Shown: positions 51,557 through 56,716 of the stretch, in pieces
How the letters are laid out: each line of letters starts with the position of its first letter
Numbering within the stretch: the stretch's first letter is position 1
Source: Brevundimonas vesicularis
GTDB taxonomy: Bacteria; Pseudomonadota; Alphaproteobacteria; Caulobacterales; Caulobacteraceae
DNA length: 64,000 nucleotides
Assembly: GCF_027105095.1 (NCBI RefSeq)
Contig: NZ_CP114278.1
Span: 62,001 to 126,000, forward strand
Direction: 5' to 3'
The notes under the pieces: model-generated
What the model was told of the DNA's origin: nothing
The model's database searches: none
The model's input: the letters and a program-made list of their open reading frames with translations, nothing else
Position numbers and translations under genes: made by a program

Positions 51557-52588
51557 TCAGGCGGGTTCTTCGGAAACGCGAACCAGCAGCTTGCCGTCGT
51601 GATCGCCGGTGAACAAGCGATTCAACGATCCCACCGCGCCTTCCAGCCCGTCGTCGACGTGAACCTTCCATTTCACCCGGCCGTCCGCCAGCCACGGACC
51701 CATTTCCGCGACCATCTCGCGAGCGCGCGGGGCGTAGTCCAGGACCAGGAAGCCCTGGACGTGCAGGCGATGGGTGATGATGCGCGCGAAGTTAGGCGAC
51801 GGCGGCGCCTTGGTCGCATTGTAGGAGGACACCAGGCCGCAAACCGCCATCCGGCCGTGGACCTTCAGACGGTTGAAAACCGCGATCATGATGTCGCCGC
51901 CGACATTCTCGAAGTTCAGATCGACGCCGTCGGGGGCCAGACGGTCCAGCGCCTCGCCGACATCCTCGTTCTTGTAATCGATGGCCGCGTCGAAACCGAG
52001 TTCGTCGGTCAGCCAGGCGCACTTCTGCGGGCCGCCCGCGATGCCGATGACGCGGCAGCCGCGCTGTTTGGCGATCTGCCCCGCGATCGAGCCGACCGCG
52101 CCGGCGGCGGCCGAGATGACGATGGTCTCGCCTTCCTTGGCCTTCAACACATCGGTGACGCCGAAATAGGCGGTCAGGCCGGTCATGCCGAGCACGGACA
52201 TATTGGCCGTCAACGGCAGGCCAGGCGCGCGGTGGACCGGGCGCAAGCCGCCTTCCGGCACGACCGCATAGTCAGCCCAGCCGCCCGAGGTCGGCATGAC
52301 GATATCGCCGGCCTTGAATCGGCTGGATCGCGAGGCTTCGACCACGCCCAGCGTCAGGCCGCGCATGACCTCGCCCAGGCCGACCGGCGGCAGATAGCCC
52401 TCGGAATCGTTCATCCAGGTGCGATTGGTCGGGTCCAGCGACAGATAGACGGTGCGGACCAGCACCTCGTTCTCTTGCAGATCAGGGATGGCCGTCTCGA
52501 CTAGTTCCAGATCTCTAGGCTGGATAAGGCCCTTGGGGCGCTGGCGCAGCACCCATTGACGGTTCGTCTTGCCGCTTGTCGAAGCCAT
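51557..52588 (-). CDS. NADP-dependent medium-chain oxidoreductase (PTGR/YncB type)
   Basis: 343 residues from the ATG at 52588, with GGAGAG upstream. It lacks the zinc ligands of alcohol dehydrogenases. The cofactor-binding loop AAAGAVGSIAGQIAKQRGCRVIGIAGG is at about 158-184, and ENVGGDIM and the N-terminal YLSLDPTNRTWMND are typical of the prostaglandin-reductase/curcumin-reductase group that reduces the C=C bond of enones. It heads a two-gene unit with the MaoC-like gene. An EcfG-type promoter lies about 190 bases upstream, but a terminator intervenes. Confidence 0.92.
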   Translation of the reverse strand: MASTSGKTNRQWVLRQRPKGLIQPRDLELVETAIPDLQENEVLVRTVYLSLDPTNRTWMNDSEGYLPPVGLGEVMRGLTLGVVEASRSSRFKAGDIVMPTSGGWADYAVVPEGGLRPVHRAPGLPLTANMSVLGMTGLTAYFGVTDVLKAKEGETIVISAAAGAVGSIAGQIAKQRGCRVIGIAGGPQKCAWLTDELGFDAAIDYKNEDVGEALDRLAPDGVDLNFENVGGDIMIAVFNRLKVHGRMAVCGLVSSYNATKAPPSPNFARIITHRLHVQGFLVLDYAPRAREMVAEMGPWLADGRVKWKVHVDDGLEGAVGSLNRLFTGDHDGKLLVRVSEEPA

Positions 52589-52659
52589 TGGCGTCTCTCC
52601 GTGCGTTTTCTTTGACCACCATCTTGGCCGCGACAGCGGCCTCGGTCGAGGTGTGCGAC

Positions 52660-52773
52660 AAGAAAAAAGCGACCCTTGCGGATCGCTTTGAAGTGGCATC
52701 ATCGAGAATGAGGCGCGGAGGCGGCATGATCGGCTTTCGCAGATCAAGTCGGGGGGCGTCGCCGCCTCCACGG
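52660..52773 (-). ncRNA. Candidate EcfG-dependent small RNA of about 114 nt
   Basis: Read on the minus strand, a perfect GGAAC-N16-CGTT promoter (52804-52780) is followed by a region without a plausible ORF. Its first part folds strongly: GGAGGCGGC (52769-52761) pairs with GCCGCCTCC (52725-52717). Inside, a TGATC/GATCA stem (52746-52742 with 52731-52727) lies next to an unpaired run of six C (52756-52751). It ends with a hairpin AAAGCGA-N10-TCGCTTT and a T-tract (52689-52661). The C-rich loop and EcfG control recall GsrN of Caulobacter as I remember it. The 5' end is estimated from the promoter position. It could also be the leader of the oxidoreductase gene with an attenuator. Confidence 0.6.
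52661..52689 (-). terminator. Terminator of the candidate small RNA
   Basis: Minus-strand AAAGCGA-N10-TCGCTTT followed by TTTCTT; the last T residues of the stem and the tail give a run of six T. It lies between the EcfG-type promoter and the oxidoreductase start. Confidence 0.75.
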
Positions 52774-52779
52774 ACCGAT

Positions 52780-52804
52780 AACGACGGCGCCTGAAGCCGG
52801 TTCC
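52780..52804 (-). promoter_or_regulatory. EcfG-type promoter ahead of the candidate small RNA
   Basis: GGAAC at 52804-52800 and CGTT at 52783-52780 on the minus strand, separated by exactly 16 bases. This is the same spacing and sequence as the other three EcfG-type promoters of this locus. Confidence 0.75.
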
Positions 52805-52864
52805 CGACCTCGATCGCTTTTTTTGCGCCTTCGTACTTTGGCCCACCAATGCTGGCGCAAACCA

Positions 52865-52897
52865 AAGAAAAGGCCTCGATCCCGAGGGACCGAGGCC
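52865..52897 (-). terminator. Terminator after phyR
   Basis: Minus strand GGCCTCG-N12-CGAGGCC followed by TTTTCTTT, 27 bases after the phyR stop codon. It isolates phyR transcription from the candidate small RNA. Confidence 0.8.
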
Positions 52898-52924
52898 GAT
52901 CTTGTTGTCAGCGAAAGACCAGTT

Positions 52925-53719
52925 TTAAGCGGCTTCCTTCTGGCGCGACGGGTGGAAGAACAGCGCCTGGCTGATCGCCGCCTTCACCGTTTCCGGCTGG
53001 AAGGGCTTGGTGATCAGGAAGGTCGGCTCGGGACGCTCGCCGGTCAGCAGACGTTCCGGGAAGGCGGTGATGAAGATCACAGGCACGTCCATCGTCTTCA
53101 GGATATCCTTGACCGCATCGATGCCCGACGAGCCGTCGGCCAGTTGAATGTCGGCCAAAACCAGGCCCGGCTTGTGGCGGGCGACGGCGTCGATCGCCTC
53201 GTCGTGCGTCGTGGCGGTGCCGGTGACGCGGTGACCCAGTTCCGTGACCAGGCTCTGGATGTCGGCCGAAATGATGGCCTCGTCCTCGATGACCAGAACA
53301 TCCGTGGCCAGTTCGGCGTCGATGTCCGCCTGGGCGTCGGCGATCAGACGCTCCACGTCGCGCGGATCGGCGGACAGGATTTGCGCGGCTTCCGAAGGGG
53401 TGAAGCCTTCAAGGGCGGTCAGCAGGAAGGCCTGACGCGAGCGCGGCGCGATACGCAGCAGACGCTGCGAGGCGTCGCTGCCCGTGGTTTCCAGCGTGCC
53501 GGTTTCCAGTTGCGCACCGGTCGAGGACCAGATGGCGTGGAACACATGATAGAGAGCGACCCGCGGCGTCATATCGGCCGACAATTGCTGCTCGCCGGCC
53601 GCCAAGGCCTCCAGAGCGACACGGACATAATTGTCGCCTGTGGATTGATCGCCGGTCAGGGCGCGTGCGTAACGGCGCACATAAGGAAGATGCGGCGCGA
53701 GTCTGGCCAGAAGGCTCAT
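52925..53719 (-). CDS. phyR: Anti-anti-sigma response regulator PhyR
   Basis: 264 residues. The N-terminal sigma-like domain (about 1-125) resembles EcfG regions 2 and 4 but is degenerate for DNA binding. The C-terminal receiver domain (about 140-258) has acidic residues EDE (145-147), the phospho-acceptor Asp190 in LADIQ and Lys in TKPF. When phosphorylated, PhyR binds NepR and frees EcfG. The gene is divergent from nepR-ecfG-phyK and has its own EcfG-type promoter, giving positive feedback. Confidence 0.97.
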   Translation of the reverse strand: MSLLARLAPHLPYVRRYARALTGDQSTGDNYVRVALEALAAGEQQLSADMTPRVALYHVFHAIWSSTGAQLETGTLETTGSDASQRLLRIAPRSRQAFLLTALEGFTPSEAAQILSADPRDVERLIADAQADIDAELATDVLVIEDEAIISADIQSLVTELGHRVTGTATTHDEAIDAVARHKPGLVLADIQLADGSSGIDAVKDILKTMDVPVIFITAFPERLLTGERPEPTFLITKPFQPETVKAAISQALFFHPSRQKEAA

Positions 53720-53781
53720 TCAGATAGTCCCCGACAAATCATAGCCCAATCCCGCGGGGGATGGGCGCTGTAGACGGATTA

Positions 53782-53806
53782 AACGTCGCATTCGCACCAC
53801 GGTTCC
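53782..53806 (-). promoter_or_regulatory. EcfG-type promoter of phyR
   Basis: GGAAC (53806-53802) and CGTT (53785-53782) on the minus strand with a 16-base spacer. The expected start lies about 55 bases before the phyR ATG. Confidence 0.85.
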
Positions 53807-53847
53807 GCCGCTGCGAACAAGCTTTAGCATTAAAAGCCGTTCATGCA

Positions 53848-53872
53848 GGAACCCTGCAGGTCGGATGACGTT
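53848..53872 (+). promoter_or_regulatory. EcfG-type promoter of nepR-ecfG
   Basis: GGAAC (53848-53852) and CGTT (53869-53872) with a 16-base spacer; the expected start is about 43 bases before the nepR ATG. This points to autoregulation by the encoded sigma factor. Confidence 0.85.
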
Positions 53873-53922
53873 TGAGACCGACATCTTCTCATGATGACAG
53901 TTGGGTGGGCTTGGCTCTGTCT

Positions 53923-54123
53923 ATGATCGATTCTCCAGACTCCTCTCGTGCCAAAGGCGACCCAAAGGGGGAGGCAGGGCTCGAAGAAGCTCGTCTTCGC
54001 CAGCAGGCCATCGGCGTTAAGCTGCGGCATATGTTCGACGAGGTCGTCAACGAACCCGTGCCCGATGAGTTTCTCGACATTCTAAAACGCGCCGACGCCA
54101 AGGCTTCGGACGGCGCCGCATGA
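53923..54123 (+). CDS. nepR: Anti-sigma factor NepR
   Basis: 66 residues from the ATG at 53923. The conserved region is at about 25-58 (AIGVKLRHMFDEVVNEPVPDEFLDILKRA), two short helices that grip EcfG or PhyR. In unstressed cells it holds EcfG inactive. The flanks are disordered and charged. The ribosome site is weak. Its stop overlaps the ecfG start by 4 bases (ATGA), securing balanced production of sigma and anti-sigma. Confidence 0.95.
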   Translation: MIDSPDSSRAKGDPKGEAGLEEARLRQQAIGVKLRHMFDEVVNEPVPDEFLDILKRADAKASDGAA

Positions 54124-54731
54124 GCACCTCACGCCTGGGGGCCGCTCCCAAACCCGCCTCGGCCGATGACGAGGGCTTCAAGCGCGAACTGGTGCTGCTG
54201 ATCCCGCATTTGCGCGCCTTCGCCCGGACCTTGACCGGCGACCCGACCGCGGCCGACGATCTGGCGCAGGACGCCATGATGAAGGCCTGGGACGCGCGCG
54301 CCAGCTATCAGATGGGCACCAACATGAAGGCCTGGACCTTCATGATCCTGCGCAACCAGTTCTATTCCGAAAAGCGCCGCTCATGGCGCCAGTCGCAGCT
54401 GGATCAGGAAGCGGCCGAACGGACACTGGTCGCCGTGGACGATCCCGAGGCGCCCGTCGCTCTGGACGAGTTGCGTCAAGCCTTGAAGACCCTGCCCGAA
54501 GAGCAGCGCGAGGCCTTGATCCTGGTGGGCGCCGGCGGCTTCGCCTACGAAGAAGCGGCCGAAATTTGCGGCTGCGCCGTCGGCACGGTGAAGAGCCGCG
54601 TCAGCCGCGCGCGGCGTGCGCTGCAAGCCACCCTGGAACGGGGCGGCTACGGACGCGACGGCAAGGCGGCAGGCGACGCCATGCGCTCGATTCTCGGCGA
54701 GGCCGACAGGCTGGCCGGCGCCCGGAGCTGA
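54120..54731 (+). CDS. ecfG: General stress ECF sigma factor EcfG (SigT)
   Basis: 203 residues. Region 2 spans about 25-95 (LRAFARTLTGDPTAADDLAQDAMMKAWDA, then MKAWTFMILRNQFYS), and region 4 about 115-170 (LKTLPEEQREALILVGAGGFAYEEAAEICGCAVGTVKSRVSRAR). It directs RNA polymerase to GGAAC-N16-CGTT promoters and runs the alphaproteobacterial general stress response. It is translationally coupled to nepR and followed after 6 bases by the kinase gene. Confidence 0.97.
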   Translation: MSTSRLGAAPKPASADDEGFKRELVLLIPHLRAFARTLTGDPTAADDLAQDAMMKAWDARASYQMGTNMKAWTFMILRNQFYSEKRRSWRQSQLDQEAAERTLVAVDDPEAPVALDELRQALKTLPEEQREALILVGAGGFAYEEAAEICGCAVGTVKSRVSRARRALQATLERGGYGRDGKAAGDAMRSILGEADRLAGARS

Positions 54732-54737
54732 TCTGCG

Positions 54738-56528
54738 GTGAACCAGACGACCAGGGAGACCTCACGGTCGCGGCTCGGTCGCACGTGGCGGACGGATCGC
54801 TTTCAGGGCATCCGCTTTCGTCTGGGCGCGGCCATGGCCATGGCCCTGTTGCCGATCTTCGTGCTCAGCCTGATCCAGACGCAGGCTGACTTCCAAAGAC
54901 AGGCCGACGACCGGCAGGTGGATCTTCAACTGGCGGCCGAACGCAGCGCCTCCAGCGCAAAGGCGCAGCTGGACAGCGCGCAGGTGCTTTTGCGCGCGCT
55001 CAGCCCCGATGCGGTGGGTCCGTATTGCGCACCGCGCCTGACGGCGCTGGTCGGACGTCTGGAAGGCTATGAGGGCCTCTATCGCATCAGCCCGACGGGC
55101 GAGGCGGTCTGCGCCTCCGGCCGGGCGGACGGCGTGAGATCCGGCGTGGCGCCCGCCGCCCAGGCGACTTGGTTCCAGCGGCTGCGCAACGGCGAAGAGC
55201 TTGTCGTCATGCGCGCGCCCGACGGCGCCGGCTATGAAGGCGCGCTGATCGTGGCCACCCGCGCCGAACGGCCGATGGGCCGGTTCGACGGCGCCATGGT
55301 CGCCGTGATCCCCTTCTCCGCCCTGCAACCGGATGTCACCGATCCCGCCCTGCCCTCGGGCGCTCAAGCCGCCCTGACCGACGGCGCCGGGCGCATTCTG
55401 ACGGCCAGTGATCCGGACGTGTTCAAACTGTCGGCCGGAGACGACATCGCCGGCTGGGTGGCCCGCGCGCGCGACCAGGGATCGGCGGTGTTCGAGGCCA
55501 AGGATTCGCAGAAGCGGCGCCGCGACTATGCGGGCGCGGCCCTGGCTGGCGGCGACCTTTACGCTCTGCTGTCGGCCCCGGCGCCAGGGTGGCTGTCCTG
55601 GGCGCGGCTCAACCCGATCGGCACCCTGTTGCTGCCGCTGGGGGCGTGGCTGACGGCGTTCGCGGCGGTCATGCTGCTATCCGAGCGCATCTTCATCCGC
55701 TGGCTGGATTATCTGGAGCGGGTCGCGGGCATTTACGCCAAGGGCCGGTTCTCGGTGCGTCCGCTGCAGGCGATGAACGCCCCGTCGGAAATCCGCACCA
55801 TGGCGCGTACGCTGGACGAGATGGCCGAGGCCATCACACTGCGTGACCGCGAGCTGACGGACGCCCTGATGGAAAAGGACGCGCTGATGCGTGAAATCCA
55901 TCACCGGGTGAAGAACAACCTTCAGATCATCTCCTCCCTGCTATCGATGCAGCAGCGCGCCCTGACCGATGCGCCGGCCAAGGCGGCTCTGGGCGATACG
56001 CGCCAGCGCATCTCGGCCTTGGCCCTGATCTACCGCACCCTTTATCAGAGCAACGACATCCGCCACGCCGATGCGCGCGAGTTTCTGAACGAATTGGTCG
56101 GACAGCTGATCGCCAGCGAAGCCGGGCGCGGACCGGTAGTCATCAGCTCGGTGGACGCCGACTCCCTGCACGTCGATCCCGACAAGCTGGCGCCTTTGGC
56201 GCTGTGGCTGGTCGAGGCGGTCAGCAATGCGCAGAAGCACGCCTTCGCCCACAGCGGTGGCGAGCTGAAGGTGCGCTTCCGCGTCCAGGGCGAGACATCG
56301 GTTCTGGAAGTCGAGGACAATGGCCCTGGCGCCCAGGCCGGCGCCGAGGTCGGGGTGGGCCGCACCCTGATGAGCGCCTTCGCCAAACAGTTGCGCGGCG
56401 AGACCGAGTTCGCCGCCCCGCCCGGCGGCGGCACCATCGCCCGCATGATCTTCGCCACCCCGGAAGCGCTCGCGCCCGTCGATCCGTCGGACAAGACGCC
56501 CGGAACCGCAGCGCTGGCGTCGCGTTGA
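54738..56528 (+). CDS. phyK: HisKA_2/HWE-type sensor histidine kinase, PhyK-like
   Basis: 596 residues from a GTG start. Two membrane segments (about 33-52 and 293-315) flank a periplasmic sensor domain. A HAMP-like linker follows (about 315-370), then the phospho-acceptor region EIHHRVKNNLQ (His at about 388-389) and an ATPase domain with EAVSNAQKHAF and DNGPGA. Its position after ecfG matches the Caulobacter phyR-nepR-sigT-phyK order that I recall. It should phosphorylate PhyR. An EcfG-type promoter for the next gene lies inside its last codons. Confidence 0.93.
   Translation: MNQTTRETSRSRLGRTWRTDRFQGIRFRLGAAMAMALLPIFVLSLIQTQADFQRQADDRQVDLQLAAERSASSAKAQLDSAQVLLRALSPDAVGPYCAPRLTALVGRLEGYEGLYRISPTGEAVCASGRADGVRSGVAPAAQATWFQRLRNGEELVVMRAPDGAGYEGALIVATRAERPMGRFDGAMVAVIPFSALQPDVTDPALPSGAQAALTDGAGRILTASDPDVFKLSAGDDIAGWVARARDQGSAVFEAKDSQKRRRDYAGAALAGGDLYALLSAPAPGWLSWARLNPIGTLLLPLGAWLTAFAAVMLLSERIFIRWLDYLERVAGIYAKGRFSVRPLQAMNAPSEIRTMARTLDEMAEAITLRDRELTDALMEKDALMREIHHRVKNNLQIISSLLSMQQRALTDAPAKAALGDTRQRISALALIYRTLYQSNDIRHADAREFLNELVGQLIASEAGRGPVVISSVDADSLHVDPDKLAPLALWLVEAVSNAQKHAFAHSGGELKVRFRVQGETSVLEVEDNGPGAQAGAEVGVGRTLMSAFAKQLRGETEFAAPPGGGTIARMIFATPEALAPVDPSDKTPGTAALASR
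56502..56526 (+). promoter_or_regulatory. EcfG-type promoter inside the end of phyK
   Basis: GGAAC (56502-56506) and CGTT (56523-56526), 16-base spacer. The expected start is about 45 bases ahead of the entericidin-like gene. It overlaps phyK codons and ends 2 bases before the phyK stop ends. Confidence 0.8.
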
Positions 56529-56578: not shown

Positions 56579-56716
56579 ATGCGCAAGATTTTCGTTCTGG
56601 TCGCCGCCGCCGCCGCCCTGACCACCGCCGCCTGCAACACCGTCGAAGGCGTGGGCCGTGACACCCAGGCCGCCGGCCAGGCCGTGACCGGCGCCGCCCA
56701 AGACGCCAAGAACTAA
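56579..56716 (+). CDS. Entericidin-like small lipoprotein
   Basis: 45 residues: a short signal peptide with lipobox TAAC (Cys19), followed by a small polar part with NTVEGVGRDTQAAGQAVTGAAQDA, as in the entericidin A/B family. Family members are membrane lipoproteins of stress or stationary phase, historically linked to programmed cell lysis; that role is not proven here. The gene has its own EcfG-type promoter and terminator, so it should be induced by the general stress response. Confidence 0.9.
   Translation: MRKIFVLVAAAAALTTAACNTVEGVGRDTQAAGQAVTGAAQDAKN

Follow-up and report, generated by a model that had tools for sequence, protein, structure and literature searches.

The small RNA gene that lies next to the stress genes in this DNA of Brevundimonas vesicularis is very probably (we put it at about 93%) the gsrN of Brevundimonas, an RNA that would be transcribed by EcfG, end at its own terminator and pair through a run of C with G-rich stretches of mRNAs. 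This identification is carried by homology of sequence and structure, the promoter and terminator sequences, the neighboring genes and the covariation of paired bases; positions refer to the 64,000-nt stretch that was analyzed as a whole (the window). GsrN was described in Caulobacter crescentus as ccna_R0081 (PMC5869019, cited here, like the other two papers, from excerpts), and BLASTn matches to it were reported in Caulobacter, Brevundimonas and Phenylobacterium, as a rule close to ecfG, nepR and phyR, with C. crescentus as the exception. Because homologues in Brevundimonas and their usual place by the stress genes were reported there, the identity and placement of the present gene were already known; these family homologues had been called by BLASTn and not via the katG role of GsrN. 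In a literature search that lay outside most subscription journals we found no other study of GsrN in Brevundimonas, and the excerpts of PMC12559287 deal with other Caulobacter RNAs. The new details, which are worth following, are a difference concerning katG and an apparently separable linker.

Match to the GsrN family, conservation and fold

The gene and its parts are as follows.

52661..52771, minus strand: gsrN (RF01529/CC3552) small RNA, with estimated ends at 52771 (5') and near 52661 (3')
52715..52771, minus strand: 5' domain, a 12-pair outer stem (52771-52760 with 52726-52715) around the loop and inner hairpin
52747..52759, minus strand: C-rich seed loop ACGCCCCCCGACT, with six C at 52756-52751
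52727..52746, minus strand: inner hairpin
52697..52712, minus strand: conserved linker CTCATTCTCGATGATG, a proposed second module
52660..52689, minus strand: intrinsic terminator, a 10-bp hairpin (52689-52666) and T-rich tail

The sequence-only reading had offered a choice between a GsrN homologue and a new RNA and had proposed a covariance-model search, which decided for the homologue. Rfam family RF01529 (CC3552) covers the RNA end to end (52769-52667 on the minus strand, model 1-106) with 88.9 bits, against a gathering cut-off of 50 bits (E = 5.9 × 10-13 for the 64-kb window), and is the sole over-cut-off Rfam match in the whole window; a lax scan of 52600-52860, with E up to 1, gave no family besides it. 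A genuine stress-response RNA had thus been recognized by a first reading of the raw sequence. That the RNA is a new, unrelated EcfG-controlled small RNA, GsrN-like in layout only, is refuted for practical purposes: its score is indeed lower than that of many relatives (up to 124.7 bits in genus genomes), and its loop region is shorter than the consensus, with two loop bases and two bases after the loop missing, but the model is matched over its whole length and a graded series of relatives runs across the genus and family. The exact loop sequence is also present in the records of B. vesicularis NBRC 12165 and S00192. CcsR-type RNAs are anti-Shine-Dalgarno RNAs with CCUCCUCCC in the loop; this motif was not found in 52661-52771, and the RNA is not assigned to that group. 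No tRNA was found in the window.

We equate RF01529 with the GsrN of Caulobacter because the model has 106 positions, because numbered positions agree and because C. vibrioides alone among 14 control genomes exceeded the cut-off. GsrN is numbered to 106, with positions C53, T54 and T64 (PMC5869019); when the RNA of a 4.0-Mb Caulobacter-genus genome (L039) is started two bases upstream of its model match, it is 106 nt long and has C, T and T at 53, 54 and 64. The same numbering places the 5' end of the present RNA at 52771, close to the end near 52773 named earlier, although this position, too, is estimated from the model. As in C. crescentus (PMC5869019), the RNA has an EcfG/sigma-T promoter, a length of about 106 nt, a C-rich 5' loop in a closed stem with an inner hairpin, and an intrinsic terminator, as judged by sequence.

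In its own genome, gsrN is the only over-cut-off match. A second candidate, C1:2147276-2147392 (32.7 bits, below the cut-off), was regarded as chance: it sits antisense inside a long reading frame, which we take to be that of aspartate carbamoyltransferase, and no GGAAC-N15/17-NNTT was found on either strand of its 3.1-kb locus. Matches of 117 bases like this one occur in 11 further genus genomes.

RF01529 exceeded the cut-off in 105 of the 131 genus genomes and in 270 of the 390 family genomes (17 of 22 genera having matches at E ≤ 0.001), and in three of the 289 genomes sampled across the class, all three Brevundimonas. The GsrN-like RNAs proposed for Rhizobiaceae are likewise described as lying near the stress locus, with an EcfG site and a C-rich 5' loop that is exposed (PMC5869019), but RF01529 found nothing outside Brevundimonas in the 289-genome sample. 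The loci that were read number 155, comprising 112 from the genus (105 over the cut-off plus seven of 11 weaker genomes) and 43 from other genera, the latter drawn from the higher-scoring among 165 over-cut-off genomes. Strongly altered genus relatives score below the cut-off. PhyR was searched for in the 26 genus genomes without an over-cut-off match and was found in 22; in the other four (two of them only 78% and 84% complete) the lack of the RNA follows from the selection. An EcfG-type promoter and a small-RNA-like region stand downstream of phyR in 18 of the 22 (in G119 at another fetched locus), and this region is absent in at least four PhyR-bearing genomes (G050, G056, G099 and G118). 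In G099 (L252) and G118 (L251), where gsrN is missing, a terminator-like remnant lies between phyR and the oxidoreductase gene. Eleven loci found via promoter and place bring the genus set to 123; since the promoter was part of their search, it is not independent evidence in these 11.

The predicted fold is far more stable than chance (-51.4 kcal/mol versus -32.8 kcal/mol in shuffles; z = -5.6), and none of 200 shuffles was as low. The 9-bp stem around six C and an inner stem, noticed earlier, is a perfect inverted repeat (52717-52725 / 52761-52769) that grows to 12 pairs in the fold, and the final hairpin with its T-tract was likewise read correctly; with promoter, stem-loops, linker and terminator in place, the layout is that of a complete small RNA gene. 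A run of at least five C followed by GAC was found in 104 of the 123 genus loci and in all 43 other-genus loci, a set selected with a model in which the loop itself raises the score. That the stems are kept in relatives is evident from an alignment of the 48 sequences left after thinning 146 at 90% similarity, in which 91.6% of the cells pair and 22 of the 33 pairs show two-sided changes; none of 500 shuffles reached any of the five measures, and slid structures paired in only 34-54%. Such changes were seen in eight of the 12 pairs of the outer stem (98.1% of cells paired), in six of seven counted pairs of the inner hairpin and in five of seven counted pairs of the terminator helix, some terminators having been shortened by the end rule. 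Two small helices in the linker region were weaker (74.5% and 88.6% of cells paired), and RNAalifold, run on the same alignment, predicts neither these two nor the terminator helix.

Promoter and setting in the stress locus

The location within the stress locus, claimed in the sequence-only reading, was borne out: phyR, nepR, the sigma factor gene and phyK adjoin the RNA.

52800..52804, minus strand: EcfG (sigma-T) type -35 element GGAAC
52780..52783, minus strand: EcfG type -10 element CGTT, spacer 16 nt
52925..53719, minus strand: phyR (NF006623, 378.9 bits), upstream of gsrN on the same strand
53782..53806, minus strand: EcfG-type promoter upstream of phyR
53848..53872, plus strand: EcfG-type promoter upstream of nepR-ecfG
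53872..54123, plus strand: nepR anti-sigma factor (NF051865, 108.2 bits), start codon provisional
54120..54731, plus strand: ecfG-type sigma factor (sigma-70 region 2 and 4 domains)
54738..56528, plus strand: phyK sensor kinase (NF051872, 896.6 bits)
51557..52588, minus strand: NADP-dependent-type oxidoreductase (ADH_N_2, ADH_zinc_N), downstream of the gsrN terminator

The sigma factor was named EcfG because of its position beside nepR and phyR, and the closest NCBIfam model to the oxidoreductase (curcumin reductase) scores below its cut-off. In C. crescentus, gsrN is not at the stress locus (PMC5869019), whereas it adjoins phyR in Brevundimonas: phyR, in the same orientation, precedes it in 103 of the 112 genus loci (four of the nine misses have short flanks) and in 29 of the 43 other-genus loci.

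The minus-strand promoter GGAAC-N16-CGTT described earlier stands at 52804-52780 (GGAACCGGCTTCAGGCGCCGTCGTT). The pattern GGAAC-N16/17-CGTT occurs four times in the window against 0.94 expected (one of 100 shuffles reached four), and all four copies are confined to 52780-56526, that is, to the stress locus. Throughout the genome, however, it is hardly enriched (52 versus 42 for the reversed control), so the motif by itself proves little and the weight is carried by its conserved position. GGAAC was found upstream of the RF01529 match in all 155 fetched loci, at a distance of 35 or 36 nt from the estimated start of the RNA in 151 of them, which upholds the reading as an EcfG-type promoter. CGTT follows after a spacer of 15-17 bases in 84 of the 112 genus loci and 25 of the 43 other-genus loci (109 of 155 in total), and the remaining loci, 28 of them in the genus, have another NNTT, which is a loose criterion. 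Because a terminator-like hairpin (52872-52897, minus strand) separates phyR from gsrN, the latter probably depends on its own promoter.

Under stress, PhyR would free EcfG from NepR, and EcfG would then transcribe gsrN from GGAAC-N16-CGTT, as is suggested by the dependence on this sigma factor shown for Caulobacter GsrN (PMC5869019). The RNA of about 110 nt would stop at its own terminator, and its 5' domain would expose the C-run for pairing with G-rich stretches of mRNAs, by analogy with katG of Caulobacter.

Could the conserved region instead be the 5' leader or an upstream reading frame of the oxidoreductase gene, with no independent RNA at all? The two are on the same strand, in the window one frame runs without a stop codon from the start of the RNA up to that of the oxidoreductase gene, and the oxidoreductase gene lies downstream in 100 of the 112 genus loci. 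Yet the frame is open in only 26 of these 100 loci, no oxidoreductase homologue was found in the fetched flanks of the 43 other-genus loci, and a conserved terminator stands between the RNA and the gene, all of which makes the leader highly unlikely. Since the frame across the RNA is not conserved, the coding alternative was ruled out, and the earlier statement that the region holds no plausible ORF is right in the sense that it holds no conserved one. An independent gsrN transcript is therefore preferred.

A fourth EcfG-type promoter (56502-56526, plus strand) lies ahead of a 45-codon frame (56579-56716, plus strand), which by eye looks like an entericidin-type lipoprotein and may be another output of the stress switch.

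Comparison of katG leaders

In Caulobacter, katG is the proven direct target of GsrN, the first seven katG bases pairing with the GsrN loop (PMC5869019). It is unlikely, though, that the Brevundimonas RNA acts chiefly in exactly this way, by activating katG translation through its C-loop. The mechanism is proven in Caulobacter and katG itself is common, being matched in 116 of the 131 genus genomes, B. vesicularis included, but its leaders differ. From the description in PMC5869019 and its recurrence in katG leaders, GTCGGGG is presumably the site for the loop in Caulobacter. It was found in eight of 16 Caulobacter-genus leaders and in none of 30 Brevundimonas leaders (150 nt upstream plus 20 nt), with the same counts in both genera after widening to -300..+100. 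No run of five G occurs in the 150 nt upstream of katG in any of the 30 genus leaders, and duplexes of the loop with the leaders were no better than with shuffled leaders (mean z = +0.25, n = 30; for Caulobacter, -0.74, n = 16; both weak). The genus set consists of the best-scoring 30 of the 116 genomes with a match, and the Caulobacter set of 16 nearly complete copies, found in 15 of the 20 genomes chosen, including the G204 copy with an internal stop and leaving out five partial stretches. The katG start codons were chosen by alignment, and a different pairing site may exist in the leaders.

Given the lack of GTCGGGG in the 30 genus leaders, the link to katG should not be transferred to this genus, katG is doubtful as a target of GsrN in Brevundimonas, and the role proven in Caulobacter should not be assumed there from annotation. 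In genome G003, katG appears as three adjacent matches (C1:971861-974015), which points to a disrupted gene or to errors in sequencing.

The linker as a possible second module

The linker CTCATTCTCGATGATG is exact in 102 of the 123 genus loci, and its conservation seems separate from that of the C-loop, for of the 13 variants whose 5' domain has been rebuilt, 12 have it in exact or near-exact form. In ten of these (type B: G013, G014, G015, G020, G029, G030, G032, G037, G057 and G077) both outer stem and loop have been remodeled, and GAC no longer follows the C-run, which is four or five long; the linker is exact in nine and one base off in G057. In the other three (type C: G034 (L253), G116 (L256) and G123 (L255)) the 5' domain lacks five consecutive C, while an EcfG-type promoter and terminator are present, and the linker is near-exact in two and partial in G123. 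Conversely, G006, G038 and G075 have kept the loop and lack the linker, which is partial in G119. A PhyR tree, which took in 117 of 127 rows, places types B and C in one broad clade (82/98) and G006, G075 and G119 in another (100/95), so that the variants represent few events. Eight of the ten type B genomes fall among the 15 of 131 genus genomes without a katG match; since types B and C share a clade, the loss of katG and the type B change are not independent evidence.

A 16-base linker variant with GCGACT gave 18 matches in the 390 family genomes, versus none for the reversed control among the matches listed; 17 lie at known loci of the small RNA and the remaining one in G388. Outside the genus, the linker varies more than the loop: TCTCGATGATG occurs in 22 of the 43 other-genus loci, and in 13 of the 43, including two 4.0-Mb Caulobacter-genus genomes, TTTGTTGATGCGAACT replaces the CTCATTCTCGATGATG of Brevundimonas.

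This distribution suggests that the linker is a second module of the RNA. A fuller proposal, which we offer tentatively and rate at somewhat below even odds, is that GsrN consists of two modules, that the linker CUCAUUCUCGAUGAUG is independent of the loop as a second seed or as a cleavage or Hfq site, and that the RNA of this genus has moved off katG to other targets. In Caulobacter, GsrN has a stable 5' isoform of 51-54 nt, Hfq affects the full-length form, the 5' part alone is enough against peroxide, and osmotic protection is independent of katG, with its target undefined; the isoforms may differ in their targets (PMC5869019). The excerpts of PMC11005374 say that a role of Hfq in GsrN activity has not been observed. 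Processing of the present RNA would fall near the foot of the outer stem, and by the RF01529-based numbering the linker overlaps the mapped T64 end, so that a cleavage site is as good an explanation of it as a second seed. It could be the linker that accounts for the role of GsrN in osmotic stress. Since some natural lineages combine a rebuilt 5' domain with a retained linker and others have the loop but have lost the linker, the two modules are testable apart, and the separate conservation of the linker offers a way to ask what portion of GsrN gives osmotic protection.

When the complement of the linker was searched for as an 18-mer, nine matches with three mismatches turned up in the genome in addition to the locus, and none with the reversed control. 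Each of the nine falls inside, or at the end of, an open frame of 120 codons or more, and only one (L271, 16 nt inside) is near the first possible start. As these matches look like codon use, no mRNA target is claimed for the linker. A 20-mer complementary to the C-loop gave one further three-mismatch match, and its control also one. Among the 123 loci, only three variants, G006 (L259), G075 (L260) and G119 (L150), showed no T-tract within the scanned stretch, and their genomes are small, at about 2.5-2.6 Mb.
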